From Candidatus Woesearchaeota archaeon CG10_big_fil_rev_8_21_14_0_10_37_12 (GTDB taxonomy: Archaea; Nanobdellota; Nanobdellia; Woesearchaeales; ARS49), in NCBI GenBank assembly GCA_002762795.1, contig PCYA01000016.1, forward strand, positions 1 through 55,464: a DNA stretch of 55,464 nt, written 5' to 3'. Positions 30,455 to 46,561 of this stretch are shown here, piece after piece. Both the position numbers and the translations under genes were made by a program. The stretch's first letter is position 1, and the number at the start of each line of letters is the position of its first letter. The notes beneath the pieces are model-generated. The model did not search any database. It saw only the letters and a list, made by a program, of their open reading frames with translations, and was not told the origin of the DNA.

Positions 30455-33127
30455 ATGGCAAAGAAAAACGAAGCAGTTGAGGAAAAAACAGCTGAAGGAG
30501 TGCAGGAAGTAGTAGAAAGAACTGTTGATAAAGAACAGTTTTCACGTGAGCGTATGGAATCAATGACTCACTACGTCTACAAGCAGGTTTCTAGTGTGGT
30601 GTTTGGTGTTCTTTCTCCGAAGATGATTAAGAAGATGGCTTCTGCTAAAATTGTTACTCCTGAATTGTATGATAAAGAGGGTTATCCTGTAGATGGGGGC
30701 TTAATGGATGTTCGTTTGGGTGTTATTGATCCTGGTTTGCGTTGTAAAACATGTGGTGCAAAATTAAAAGAGTGTATTGGTCATTTTGGTTACATTGAAC
30801 TTGCGCGTCCTGTTGTTCATGTGAAATTTGTTTCGGTTATTCTTGATTTGTTGCGTGCAACTTGTCCTGAAACTGGCAGATTGTTAATCGCTCCTGAAAA
30901 GTTGGCAAAAGCAAAAGGACATTTGGATAAAATAGAGGAAGAAGAAGGTCAGGCAGAGCGTCGTAAAGCAGTTAAAGCACTTGTTGCGCAGTCATGTAGA
31001 GGTGGCAAGAATCCGTTTACAGGCAATAAGTTGGAAAAAGTTTCTATTGAGAAGCCAACAGGTTTTGTTGAAGGTGACAGAAGATTGTCTCCTATTGAAG
31101 TGCGTGCAAGACTAGAAAAAATTCCAGATGAAGATTTGGAAATTTTTGGTTTGAATCCAAATACGGCTCGTCCCGAATGGATGATTTTAACAGTGCTTCC
31201 AATTCCTCCGGTTACAGTAAGACCTTCTATTACTTTGGAGAGTGGTGAGCGTTCTGAAGATGATTTGACTCATAAACTTGGTGATATTGTTCGTATTAAT
31301 CAGCGTTTGTTTGAAAATATTAATGCTGGTGCTCCTGAAATTATTATTGAAGACTTATGGGATTTGTTGCAGTATCATGTAACAACTTTTTTTGATAATG
31401 ATGTTGCACAATTGCCTCCTGCGAGACACAGGTCTGGTCAGCCATTAAAGACGATTTCTGAGCGTATCAAAAGTAAGGAAGGTCGTATCAGGCATAATTT
31501 GGCAGGTAAGCGTACTAATTTCTGTGCGCGTACTGTTATTTCGCCTGATCCTTATTTGGCGCTTGATGAAGTTGGTGTTCCAAAAATTATTGCGATGAAG
31601 TTGAGTGTTCCGGAAACAGTGAATGATTGGAACATGGAATATTTGAAAAAATTTGTACAGAGAGGACCGCAAGAATATCCTGGAGCAAATTATGTTGTTC
31701 GCCCTGATGGTAAGAAAAAGAGAATTACTGAGGAAACAAAAGAAGCAGCGCTTGAAGAATTACAGCCTGGTTATGTTGTTGAACGTCATTTGATGGACGG
31801 TGATATTGCAATTTTCAATAGGCAGCCGTCTTTGCACAGAATGAGCATGATGTGCCACAGAGTGAGGGTGTTGCCGGGAAGAACATTGCGTTTGAATCCA
31901 GCAGTATGTAATCCTTACAATGCAGATTTTGACGGTGATGAGATGAACTTGCATATTCCTCAGACAGAGGAATCCCGTGCAGAAGCAGAGATTTTAATGC
32001 AGGTACAAACTCAGCTTATCTCTCCAAGATATGGTTTGTCTGTTATTGGTTGTATTCATGATGCGATTACTGGTAATTATTTGTTGTCAAAGAAAGATGA
32101 TTTGACGCCGCAACAGGCAATGTTGTTGCTTGCCGCTGTTGGTATTACTGATTTGTTAAAGGTTGCAGGCAAGAAAAAAATATCTGGTAAAGAAGTGTTT
32201 AGTATGTTGCTTCCTGAAGATTTTAATTATAAAGGAGTTTCGCGTTCTGGTGATCCTGTTGTGATTAAAGATGGTAAATTGATTGAAGGTACTGTTGATA
32301 CAAAAGCCATAGGGGGAGAAGGAGAAGGTCGTTTGTTGAGATTGTTGCACAAGCAATATGGTCCTGCAAGAACAATCAAGATTTTGCATCAGATTGCAAA
32401 TCTTGGTATTGAGTATTTGATGTTGTCTGGTTTCACAACTGGCATTGCAGATGAAGATTTGCCAAAAGAAGCAACAAATCAGATTGATGATTTGCTTCAT
32501 AAGGCAGAAGAGGATGTTGCATTGCTGATCAAACAGTTCAAAGAAGGAAGCTTGGAAGCATTCCCGGGACGTTCTGTTGCAGAAACTTTGGAAATGAAAA
32601 TTTTGGAGCGTTTGAACAAAGCGCGTAATGAATGTGGCAAAGTTATCAGGCAGTTTATCACTGATAAAAACAATGCAGCAGTCATGATGTTCTCTGGTTC
32701 AAGAGGTAGTATTACTTCTCTTATTCAGATGAGTGCTTGTGTTGGTCAGCAGGCATTGCGTGGCAAGCGCATTGATAAAGGATATTCTGGAAGAACTTTG
32801 AGTTGTTTCAAAAAAGGCGATTTGAGTCCTGAATCAAGAGGATTTATTTTGAATAGTTTGAAGAAAGGAATTAATCCAAAAGAGTTTTTCTTTTTCGCAA
32901 TGACTGGTAGGGATTCACTTATGGATACTGCTTTGAGAACGCCAAAATCGGGTTACTTGTATCGCAGATTGGCAAATGCATTACAGGATTTGAAAGTTGA
33001 ATATGATGGTACTGTTCGTGATGCATCTGGCAGAATTATTCAGTTTGCATATGGAGAAGATGGTGTTGATGTTTCACGATCTGAGAATGGGAAGATTGAT
33101 GTAAAAAGAATTGTGGAGTTGGAATAA
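30455..33127 (+). CDS. rpoA1: DNA-directed RNA polymerase subunit A'
   Basis: 890 aa. Zinc motif CKTCGAKLKECIGHFGYIEL near residues 92-111; catalytic NADFDGDEMN near 490 with three metal-binding Asp; bridge-helix region GYLYRRLANALQDL near the C-terminus. An acidic/basic extension of about 40 aa (KKNEAVEEKTAEGVQEVVE) precedes the usual start of the clamp and is not typical of A' subunits. No intein is present by length. Its end overlaps no gene; rpoA2 starts 1 nt later. Confidence 0.97.
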   Translation: MAKKNEAVEEKTAEGVQEVVERTVDKEQFSRERMESMTHYVYKQVSSVVFGVLSPKMIKKMASAKIVTPELYDKEGYPVDGGLMDVRLGVIDPGLRCKTCGAKLKECIGHFGYIELARPVVHVKFVSVILDLLRATCPETGRLLIAPEKLAKAKGHLDKIEEEEGQAERRKAVKALVAQSCRGGKNPFTGNKLEKVSIEKPTGFVEGDRRLSPIEVRARLEKIPDEDLEIFGLNPNTARPEWMILTVLPIPPVTVRPSITLESGERSEDDLTHKLGDIVRINQRLFENINAGAPEIIIEDLWDLLQYHVTTFFDNDVAQLPPARHRSGQPLKTISERIKSKEGRIRHNLAGKRTNFCARTVISPDPYLALDEVGVPKIIAMKLSVPETVNDWNMEYLKKFVQRGPQEYPGANYVVRPDGKKKRITEETKEAALEELQPGYVVERHLMDGDIAIFNRQPSLHRMSMMCHRVRVLPGRTLRLNPAVCNPYNADFDGDEMNLHIPQTEESRAEAEILMQVQTQLISPRYGLSVIGCIHDAITGNYLLSKKDDLTPQQAMLLLAAVGITDLLKVAGKKKISGKEVFSMLLPEDFNYKGVSRSGDPVVIKDGKLIEGTVDTKAIGGEGEGRLLRLLHKQYGPARTIKILHQIANLGIEYLMLSGFTTGIADEDLPKEATNQIDDLLHKAEEDVALLIKQFKEGSLEAFPGRSVAETLEMKILERLNKARNECGKVIRQFITDKNNAAVMMFSGSRGSITSLIQMSACVGQQALRGKRIDKGYSGRTLSCFKKGDLSPESRGFILNSLKKGINPKEFFFFAMTGRDSLMDTALRTPKSGYLYRRLANALQDLKVEYDGTVRDASGRIIQFAYGEDGVDVSRSENGKIDVKRIVELE

Positions 33128-41413: not shown

Positions 41414-41689
41414 ATGAATTCGGAGACAGTTGAAGTAACAAGTATGAGTTCTCGAGGGCAGATTGTGATACCTCACGGGGTGAGAGAAAAAATGCATTTA
41501 GTTGAGGGAGAAAAGTTTGTCGTAATGGGCTCGGGAGATACTATTCTGTTAAAGAAAATTCACGCTCCTCCTAAAGAACAATTTGAACGATTGTTACGCG
41601 AAACAAGAAAGCATGTTAAAGAATCAGGCATAACGCCTCAAGATGTTGAAGATGCAATAAAAAGAGTGCGTGCTCGAAAGAAAAAATGA
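41414..41689 (+). CDS. AbrB/SpoVT-type antitoxin (VapB-like)
   Basis: 91 aa. The N-terminal 45 aa are an AbrB swapped-hairpin DNA-binding domain (VTSMSSRGQIVIPHGVREKM, LVEGEKFVVMGSGDTILLKK). The C-terminal half is a basic helix that would wrap the toxin. The stop overlaps the toxin ATG by 4 nt. A palindromic site precedes it. Typical antitoxin of a PIN toxin module. Confidence 0.85.
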   Translation: MNSETVEVTSMSSRGQIVIPHGVREKMHLVEGEKFVVMGSGDTILLKKIHAPPKEQFERLLRETRKHVKESGITPQDVEDAIKRVRARKKK

Positions 41690-42096
41690 TACGGGTTGTT
41701 CTCGATACAAATATTTTTATCAGTGGTATATTCTGGCCCGGAAATTATTGCGCTCAAATTATTGACGCATGGAAAGAAGGCAAATTTGAAACAGTAACTT
41801 CTGAGGAAATAGTAAAAGAGCTTGTGGAAACTCTATTTGAGTTTAAAATTAAACTTACAGAAGAAAAAATCTCTGCTTGGGAAAAAGAAATTCTTGAACG
41901 CTCATTAATTGTTGCACCAATAAACAAGTTGGACTTAGTCAAAGATGATCCAGATGATAACAAATTCTTTGAAGCAGCAATCGCGGCAAACGCACAGTAC
42001 ATTGTCAGTCAAGACAAGCACCATTTGCGCATAGGTGAATTTAAAGGAATCAAAGTTCTTACACCAGAAGAGTTTCTCACAATATTTGAGAAATAA
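41686..42096 (+). CDS. PIN-domain ribonuclease toxin (VapC-like, TIGR00305 type)
   Basis: 136 aa PIN fold. Acidic residues: D7 in VVLDTNIFISG, the Glu of SEEIVKEL near 43, D in VKDDPDDNKFFEAA near 86-90 and D in IVSQDKHHL near 106, a complete quartet for metal binding. Expected to cleave RNA when freed from the antitoxin. Its last codons run into the duplicated Lrp-gene tail: its stop lies at the start of the 50-bp repeat. So the toxin gene end and the insertion boundary almost coincide. Confidence 0.88.
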   Translation: MIRVVLDTNIFISGIFWPGNYCAQIIDAWKEGKFETVTSEEIVKELVETLFEFKIKLTEEKISAWEKEILERSLIVAPINKLDLVKDDPDDNKFFEAAIAANAQYIVSQDKHHLRIGEFKGIKVLTPEEFLTIFEK

Positions 42097-44491: not shown

Positions 44492-45697
44492 ATGAAATTT
44501 GAAGAATTAAATTTAAATTCAGAGCTATTGAAAGCTCTAAAAATATTGAAATATGATGATCCTACTGAAGTGCAGGAAAAAGCAATTCCTTTGGCGCTTT
44601 CAGGAAAAGATGTTATTGTTAGAAGTAAAACAGGTTCTGGAAAAACGTTTGCGTTTGCTTTGCCAATTATTAATATGTTGTCTCAGCAAAAACAATTGCA
44701 GGCGATCATTCTTGCACCTACAAGAGAGCTTGCGCAGCAGATCGATAGTGAAGTAAGAAAGCTTGATAGGGCTACAAAAACTATTTTGTTGTATGGCGGT
44801 GTAAGTATTAGTCCGCAAATTAGTGCGCTTGATCGGGGTGCTCATATTGTTATTGCAACGCCTGGAAGGTTGCTTGATCATATTGAGCGCAAAACTATTG
44901 ATTTGTCAGCAGTTCGTTTTGTGGTGTTGGATGAAGCAGATAGAATGTTGGATATGGGTTTTATTGATGATGTTGAGCGTATTCTTGCAAAAACTCCAAA
45001 ATCTAGGCAAACTATGTTATTCTCTGCGACAATGCCTGAGCAGATTTGTCAGCTTTCACAAAGATACATGAATAATCCAGAGCAGTTGATGTTGCAGCAG
45101 GATGAAATAACTGTTAAGCAAATTAGACAGCAAGTGTTTGGTGTTGATAGAAAGCAAAAACTGTCAGTTCTTACAAAAATTTTGCGTGATCGTGCTGCAA
45201 AAAAAACTATTGTTTTTGTGAACACAAAAGATTGGGCAAAGAGTTTGTCTGATATTTTGTATCGTAAAGGTTTTAGATCTACTAGCATTCATTCTGGTTT
45301 GTCTCAGAGCAGGCGTAATGTGGTAATTCATGATTTTAATGCAGGGAAATATACTATTCTTGTTGCTACAGATGTTGCAGCAAGAGGGTTGCATATTGAG
45401 GGCGTTACTCATGTTGTGAATTATGATATTCCTAGAAATCCTAAGGATTATGTGCATAGAATTGGCAGAACTGGTAGAGCTGGCAAGGAAGGTGATGCTG
45501 TTACTTTTGTAACGCAGGTTGATCAGCATTTGTTGAGGGCAGTTGAAGATGAGATTCAGATGCGTTTGGAAGTTCAGGATTTAGCTGGTTTGTCTGCTGC
45601 TCCAATTGAATCGCCTATGAAGATGCATCATCCTGTTGAACAAATTAAGGTGCATACGCACAGTGATTCTTCAGGTGATGATTGGGGTTTGGATTAA
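44492..45697 (+). CDS. DEAD-box ATP-dependent RNA helicase
   Basis: 401 aa, minimal two-RecA-domain form. Motifs: Q-motif (TEVQEKAIPL), I SKTGSGKT near 50-57, Ia APTRELAQQ, II VLDEADRMLD near 150, III SATMP, V TDVAARGLH, VI HRIGRTGRAG near 326-335. A short acidic/His tail (VHTHSDSSGDDWGLD) follows. Remodels RNA; archaeal members often act in rRNA processing or cold response. Its last 8 codons are duplicated 171 bp downstream. Confidence 0.95.
   Translation: MKFEELNLNSELLKALKILKYDDPTEVQEKAIPLALSGKDVIVRSKTGSGKTFAFALPIINMLSQQKQLQAIILAPTRELAQQIDSEVRKLDRATKTILLYGGVSISPQISALDRGAHIVIATPGRLLDHIERKTIDLSAVRFVVLDEADRMLDMGFIDDVERILAKTPKSRQTMLFSATMPEQICQLSQRYMNNPEQLMLQQDEITVKQIRQQVFGVDRKQKLSVLTKILRDRAAKKTIVFVNTKDWAKSLSDILYRKGFRSTSIHSGLSQSRRNVVIHDFNAGKYTILVATDVAARGLHIEGVTHVVNYDIPRNPKDYVHRIGRTGRAGKEGDAVTFVTQVDQHLLRAVEDEIQMRLEVQDLAGLSAAPIESPMKMHHPVEQIKVHTHSDSSGDDWGLD
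45675..45697. repeat. 23-bp direct repeat, copy at end of DEAD-box gene
   Basis: Positions 45675-45697 are identical to 45846-45868 (both contain the codons for DDWGLD and the stop TAA). Together they flank 148 bp of noncoding DNA. They look like the footprint of an insertion at a gene 3' end. Confidence 0.9.
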
Positions 45698-45845
45698 CTT
45701 TTTTGGTTTGCACATTTTTTGGCAACTCGTCGCGAGATTGTGAGCAGTTGCGAAGTGTTTATTTATATCCGAAAGGATTTATGATTTCCTGAGCAACTGC
45801 GAACAACGAGCGATTTAGATCAAACTTTTCCAAAAAGTTTGCTGT
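45698..45845. other. 148-bp noncoding segment between direct repeats
   Basis: No open frame of note. It contains GCAGTTGC (about 45746) opposite GCAACTGC (about 45804) as possible 8-bp arms, a small ATCCGAAAGGAT hairpin near 45768 and an AAACTTTT/AAAAAGTTT hairpin near 45823-45841. It may be a small nonautonomous element or a solo remnant. No transposase is near. Confidence 0.5.
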
Positions 45846-45868
45846 GTGATGATTGGGGTTTGGATTAA
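45846..45868. repeat. 23-bp direct repeat, downstream copy
   Basis: Second copy of the DEAD-box gene terminus, ending in TAA and a T-run. It lies just downstream of the sigma factor gene stop region (convergent), so the insertion is bounded on this side. Confidence 0.9.
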
Positions 45869-45878
45869 TTTTTTTAAG

Positions 45879-46418
45879 TTAAGCAGCAGTTCCATAAACA
45901 AAAGTGCGTAATGTTGGGTCGTTTGCTACTATTCTCCTTAGTCGGTGAATTGTTGATTTTACTGTTCCTTCTTTGAGCCCGAATCTTTCTGCCGCAGCAG
46001 CATAAGTTATTTCTTCACCCTCAATTGCAAGAAGAAGTTGTGCATTTACTGTTCCAACCTTTGCTGAGAGTCTTGGAACTAGTTGGCCACATAAGTCTTT
46101 CCTTTCAAGAAGTCCATAAGGGGTATCATGTTTGTCTGGAATAACGGTGTCTAAGTTATCTTCAAATGTTAGGCCGCCTCTGTCATTTCTTCTGCCGTTT
46201 TGTCTGCATCGGTCAAAGTGGGTTGTTAGAACAGCGCGTTTAACATATGCGCTTAATCCCCTATTTAATTCAGGGTTTGTGGTTAGTACTTTTAGCATTG
46301 CGTCTTGTACGAGGTCATCTCTTTCATGACTGGTATAACCAAGTCTACGTGCAGTTCTTAGTGCAACAGGATATGCTCCGACTAGAGCGCTTCCTAAATC
46401 AGTTTGTTCGTCACTCAT
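45879..46418 (-). CDS. sigma-70 family (ECF-like) sigma factor homologue in an archaeon
   Basis: 179 aa, the length and layout of ECF sigma factors. Region 2 includes RRLGYTSHERDDLVQDAMLK near 24-43 and LSAYVKRAVLTTHFDRCRQN near 55-74. Region 4 ends in TYAAAAERFGLKEGTVKSTI near 138-157 and HRLRRIV, a classic sigma4 helix-turn-helix. Archaeal RNA polymerase uses TBP/TFB, so a sigma factor is out of place. A TATA box (CATTAATAAAG, about 46450-46440) lies 26 nt before the ATG, giving an archaeal leaderless promoter and implying long residence. It may act as a DNA-binding regulator. Contamination is unlikely because the archaeal promoter and neighbours are continuous. Confidence 0.85.
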   Translation of the reverse strand: MSDEQTDLGSALVGAYPVALRTARRLGYTSHERDDLVQDAMLKVLTTNPELNRGLSAYVKRAVLTTHFDRCRQNGRRNDRGGLTFEDNLDTVIPDKHDTPYGLLERKDLCGQLVPRLSAKVGTVNAQLLLAIEGEEITYAAAAERFGLKEGTVKSTIHRLRRIVANDPTLRTFVYGTAA

Positions 46419-46475
46419 TTTGATGAGTTAATAACTGAGCTTTATTAATGTTTTTTAACCATTTTCAGAATTATA

Positions 46476-46561
46476 GCAGAGGCAGTATATTATTAATAAT
46501 ATTTGGCCTCTGCGATATTCGGAAAACCTAACTAAATAATATTAAAAACTTAGGTTTTCCG
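46476..46561. other. two tandem long hairpins
   Basis: Hairpin 1: arms GCAGAGGC (46476-46483) and GCCTCTGC (46506-46513) enclosing the palindrome ATATTATTAATAATAT. Hairpin 2: perfect 12-bp arms CGGAAAACCTAA (46520-46531) and TTAGGTTTTCCG (46550-46561) around an 18-nt A/T loop. They lie upstream of the sigma gene and upstream of the small ORF. Role unknown. Confidence 0.8.

Follow-up and report, generated by a model that had tools for sequence, protein, structure and literature searches.

A gene in the genome of Candidatus Woesearchaeota archaeon CG10_big_fil_rev_8_21_14_0_10_37_12 encodes a genuine bacterial-style sigma protein of the two-domain ECF type, as domain searches, fold comparison and profile matching confirm. 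It is a native chromosomal gene of the archaeon, and it belongs to a set of sigma genes found in many genomes of the same order. The stretch of DNA analysed here, contig PCYA01000016.1 over 55,464 nucleotides, is referred to below as the window; its features are collected in Table 1.

The gene is present where the initial annotation had placed it, on the minus strand, which had been left unstated there. Sigma-2 and sigma-4 signatures had been recognised by eye, and the Pfam search puts both domains above their cut-offs (24 bits for Sigma70_r2 and 25.7 bits for Sigma70_r4_2) in the expected order, region 2 followed by a C-terminal region 4. Regions 1.1, 1.2 and sigma-3 were not found in the protein (no match to PF00140 or PF04539), and there is no PF00382 match to TFIIB cyclin-like repeats and hence no TFB domain. 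Because the NCBIfam model sigma70-ECF (TIGR02937) gives 38.9 bits at E = 6.4e-10, about 4 bits short of its naming cut-off of 42.9, the protein is a divergent ECF member. Structure prediction, proposed earlier as a check, was carried out on the sigma protein alone. The AlphaFold model, built with 22 archaeal homologues, has two helical domains in an ECF-like arrangement and a mean pLDDT of 84. All of the best 20 fold matches in the PDB are sigma-factor chains, nearly all of ECF type, with whole-chain TM values that are low on account of the flexible linker. Against solved ECF sigma factors, a profile built from the protein and these homologues, 23 archaeal ECF sequences in all, gives E = 7e-45.

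Table 1. Features of the window that bear on the sigma gene and its surroundings
Feature	Position	Strand	Remarks
ECF-type sigma protein gene	45879..46418	(-)	ATG at 46418, stop at 45879; 179 aa
Sigma region 2 domain, aa 16-77	46188..46373	(-)	PF04542 (Sigma70_r2), 28.6 bits, E=1.3e-6
DAED-like RNAP-docking motif, here ERDD, aa 32-35	46314..46325	(-)	region 2.2
Sigma region 4 helix-turn-helix domain, aa 127-162	45933..46040	(-)	PF08281 (Sigma70_r4_2), 27.4 bits, E=2.6e-6
TATA box ATTAATAAAG	46440..46449	(-)	-31 to -22 from ATG; genome-trained motif
Palindrome, GC arms and AT centre	46472..46517		54-99 nt upstream of sigma ATG
Second palindrome, perfect 12-bp arms, 18-nt loop	46520..46561
Convergent DEAD-box RNA helicase	44492..45697	(+)	orthologues adjoin or neighbour sigma genes in other genera
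Direct repeat, copy 1	45675..45704	(+)	3' end of helicase gene
Direct repeat, copy 2	45846..45875	(+)	97% identical to copy 1; directly past sigma stop codon
Archaeal RNAP subunit A' (Rpo1N)	30455..33127	(+)	carries the clamp coiled coil compared
MazE-like and PIN-domain pair	41414-42096
Large repetitive surface-type protein, ~2,826 aa	46966-55446		adjoins sigma gene

The setting is archaeal throughout. The genome (1.35 Mb in 19 contigs) is 99% complete with 0.71% contamination. The window itself encodes a split archaeal RpoB as well as subunit A', single genes for TFB and TBP lie on contigs C10 and C14, and a search of the genome for bacterial RpoB found none. The GC3 of the sigma gene is 0.24, that of the genome 0.30 ± 0.05, and the codon usage of the gene falls inside the genome range. 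Genus g14 has an orthologue about 71% identical to the convergent DEAD-box helicase. There, in genome G013, it likewise faces an ECF sigma gene; in G023 the sigma gene is one gene away. In genus g3 a full-length sigma-70 type gene lies 48 bp downstream of the helicase on the same strand (G017) or about 2 kb from it (G002). Sigma genes are next to or near this helicase in genera g1, g14 and g3. Since the two nearest matches to the sigma protein within the order are only about 25% identical to it, its orthology to the copies in relatives rests on shared position.

The assemblies concerned are of the metagenome type and in many contigs, and the initial annotation had named a bacterial contig misjoined at this point as the case that would overturn it. 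That explanation is scarcely credible: synteny is conserved in another archaeal genus, the flanks in the window are archaeal, contamination is as low as noted above, codon usage is near that of the genome, and the cell has no detectable bacterial RpoB. Sigma genes also occur in G035, a genome in a single contig, and in G071, on a contig of 1.0 Mb. Among the 242 genomes of the order that were sampled, each at least 85% complete, bacterial RpoB scored above the cut-off in one (G215), which is not sigma-positive. That RpoB gene (G215:C1:2062-4635) lies near the start of its contig and is probably itself contamination.

The window copy is one of three sigma genes in its genome, the other two being on contig C19. 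Sigma region 2 was detected in 100 of the 242 genomes of the order (41%) and in 128 of 370 in a sample of the phylum, and was absent from four archaeal control genomes. The protein is therefore not the singular oddity for which it was first taken, the more so as Woesearchaeota cases are already in print. Extraction from the order yielded about two dozen sigma genes that are short and ECF-like. An ECF sigma gene on contig G309:C16 (L070 8149-8736) lies between archaeal RNAP genes and a gene resembling histidyl-tRNA synthetase. Very long sigma proteins were also seen, of 690 residues (L071 9055-11127) and 904 residues (L135 2683-5397), with the sigma domains C-terminal; the N-terminal part of the 904-residue protein gives weak matches to a helix-turn-helix and to homing-endonuclease repeats.

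The sigma proteins diverge far faster than the products of neighbouring genes. Between G013 and G023 the sigma proteins are 32% identical and the helicases 81%; for G002 and G017 the values are 43% for sigma and 91% for a neighbour, and for G181 and G182 they are 46% for sigma and 79% for an overlapping methyltransferase-like gene. Such divergence fits an accessory factor rather than a housekeeping sigma.

The patchy distribution over the order and the low identity among copies might also be explained if these genes travelled as passengers on mobile elements or viruses, or had come from bacteria repeatedly and recently, with no settled role. The 30-bp direct repeat at the junction of the sigma and helicase genes, which suggests a local duplication, an insertion or a past rearrangement, can be read in the same way. 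This explanation is distinctly unlikely, however, in view of the same locus across genera, the archaeal promoters of the sigma genes and the results for viruses and plasmids: there is no close relative in the viral contigs of IMG/VR, and only one weak phage match and seven weak plasmid matches were obtained. An origin in a virus or plasmid was set aside on these results. Elsewhere in the window, overlapping open reading frames on the other strand at the MazE-like/PIN locus share a peptide, hinting at a direct repeat that flanks the pair.

An archaeal promoter had been proposed for the sigma gene, and this part of the initial annotation holds. A TATA motif was trained on 169 upstream regions of the sigma-bearing genome; across them the motif ATTTATAAAC has a sharp maximum at -31 from the ATG, where leaderless archaeal promoters should have it. 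The box of the sigma gene begins exactly at this modal position and scores above 57% of the genome's genes. Taken singly the signal is modest: when the upstream region is shuffled, P is 0.036 for the modal positions and 0.12 for a wider range. A motif trained earlier on 25 genes of the window had given too much noise, with 66% of shuffles scoring equally well. With the same genome-trained motif a TATA box at P < 0.05 is found in 16 of 29 archaeal sigma genes of the order, where 1.5 are expected. Transcription of the sigma gene itself is most likely carried out by TBP, TFB and the archaeal RNAP from a leaderless TATA promoter.

Further upstream are the two palindromes of Table 1. They belong to a class of 34-50 nt in which arms of 12 bp enclose an AT-rich loop. 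Members are frequently paired in tandem and for the most part intergenic; the arm sequences vary while the architecture recurs. Other pairs occur at L071 8937-8979 and 8983-9024 and at L209 19429-19471 and 19478-19520. About 40 such palindromes are present in 318 kb, and in a subset 14 were counted in the real sequence and 0-3 in shuffles. An Rfam search of the sigma locus gave no significant match. The two sigma genes on C19 (L071 ~11127 and ~12827; G000) each carry an exact AATTTAAAGTTTGTTTTT just upstream of the start codon, and in the 318 kb examined the 15-nt core of this element occurs exactly only at these two genes. The shared element suggests that the two genes may be under common control.

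Region 2.2 of sigma factors is known for docking on RNAP and region 4.2 for reading the -35 element. These are the two most conserved segments among the 23 archaeal ECF proteins, with means of 2.11 and 2.15 bits per column, as against 1.4-1.7 for the other domain segments. All 23 have the final acid of the DAED motif, and 18 the acid preceding it. In bacteria this motif, part of region 2.2, makes its docking contact with basic clamp helices of beta prime (PMC8103513). Because region 2.2 is conserved and the last acid invariant, the archaeal sequences argue for continued contact with an RNAP.

The archaeal clamp does not offer an obvious counterpart. The clamp coiled coil of the sigma-bearing genome's RNAP has 3 basic and 8 acidic residues (net -5), while that of E. 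coli has 9 and 8 (+1). At R275, R293, E295 and A302 of E. coli beta prime, which we take to be positions of sigma contact and whose residues were confirmed against the E. coli gene, the sigma-bearing genome has I, E, L and H. Signs that the clamp has adapted to sigma were sought in 27 genomes; the coiled coil hardly varies, whether the genome is sigma-positive or sigma-negative, with 3 basic and 8 acidic residues in 26 of them and 4 and 7 in G044. The basic face on which DAED docks in bacteria is missing from the clamp coiled coil of the sigma-bearing genome's RNAP. Since the coiled coil is acidic and alike in sigma-positive and sigma-negative genomes, docking on it is something we only infer. 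Taken together, the retained docking motif and the acidic clamp appear to need a new assumption, be it another mode of docking, another polymerase or another reason for retention of the motif.

It is possible, although doubtful, that the protein is a regulator that binds DNA only, with the sigma-4 helix-turn-helix on DNA, region 2 kept as a structural domain that has lost contact with any RNAP, and the whole controlling TATA promoters as any repressor or activator does. The want of bacterial docking residues in the archaeal clamp and the rapid divergence agree with this, as does the loss in the window copy of W58 and N65 of the ECF pattern in region 2.3-2.4, which are Y58 and T65 here; the W and the N are each kept in 17 of the 23 archaeal ECF proteins. 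The conservation of the docking helix, equal to that of the DNA-reading helix, and the invariant last acid stand against it. Rather unlikely is sigma-dependent initiation on the archaeal RNAP beside TBP and TFB, in which ECF-type proteins would dock on the clamp in a new way and direct the polymerase to TATA-less promoters. The initial annotation had also considered, as the target, a polymerase of bacterial type belonging to a host, a virus or a plasmid. This part of it gains no support from the searches, which found no close viral or plasmid relative, but the mismatch between the docking motif and the cell's own clamp leaves room for it. A sigma protein whose target was the RNAP of an associated bacterial cell would account for a DAED-like motif kept in a cell that has an acidic clamp and no bacterial RpoB, and for fast divergence, but no export signal is evident by eye in the N-terminus (MSDEQTDLG...), and such a role seems very unlikely.

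A paired anti-sigma gene is frequent for ECF sigma factors, though not universal. No anti-sigma domain was detected in the five neighbours scanned on the side of the gene away from the large surface-type gene. In two relatives a small two-repeat protein is encoded 13-15 bp upstream of a sigma gene, and in a third it is divergent from another sigma gene, 85 bp apart. The protein has 113-116 residues (L058 5165-5506, L025 1080-1430, L201 4859-5203) and was absent when searched for in the sigma-bearing genome. It was considered as an anti-sigma factor and rejected, since its predicted four-helix bundle resembles S23/Avd proteins and no known anti-sigma.

The reading preferred here, at about even confidence, is that an ECF sigma factor has been turned into an accessory regulator of transcription, native to the archaeon and quick to evolve, that contacts the archaeal RNAP. 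This reading starts from what is established, namely a sigma fold in an archaeal setting, with an archaeal promoter, a retained docking motif, fast divergence and no bacterial RpoB. The helix-turn-helix of region 4 would read a short DNA motif, region 2 would touch the archaeal RNAP on the clamp coiled coil or close to it, and the protein would bias the transcription of a small set of genes. An acquired sigma-like protein repurposed as a DNA- or RNAP-binding regulator had been suggested from the start. That suggestion fits what was found; the binding of DNA and of RNAP, and the target genes, we infer.

Complete sigma factors were reportedly described in archaea by Rinke and co-workers in 2013. 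That Woesearchaeota carry sigma-70 genes is known since 2021, when Castelle et al. (PMC8204110, fam00359) found them in DPANN, mainly in this group, and left the mechanism unclear. The hosts in that study also encode TBP and TFB, no anti-sigma was found, and mis-binning was excluded. The window's protein is likewise encoded in an archaeon with archaeal RNAP, TBP and TFB; unlike the proteins of that study, named sigma-70 only, it is of ECF type. New here are the ECF-type members, the archaeal promoters, the lack of a bacterial polymerase, the mismatch at the clamp, the fast divergence and the synteny. Measured against bacterial ECF sigma factors (sigma-70 group 4; M. tuberculosis SigE, PDB 9m9d; E. 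coli RpoE, 1or7), the protein shares sigma-2 and sigma-4 without region 1.2 or sigma-3, a DAED-like motif and the fold. It differs in belonging to a cell in which just one RNAP was detected, an archaeal one whose clamp coiled coil is acidic, in its archaeal TATA promoter, in the replacement of W58 and N65, and in having no recognised anti-sigma among the neighbours scanned. Initiation factors of the archaeal kind, TFB and TFE, operate in the same cell type. TFB and sigma have been argued to be distant homologues (PMC8131849); unlike TFB, the window's protein has no TFB domain, and the genome's TFB is encoded separately.

Sigma factors, which steer the RNA polymerase of bacteria to its genes, define bacterial transcription, and TBP and TFB define that of archaea. 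A large archaeal group that keeps sigma genes stably, reads them from archaeal promoters and lacks a bacterial polymerase offers a natural test of whether the two initiation systems can mix. Because the conserved docking motif and the acidic clamp are mismatched, the prediction is that either the archaeal RNAP has a novel mode of binding sigma or the target of the protein lies elsewhere.
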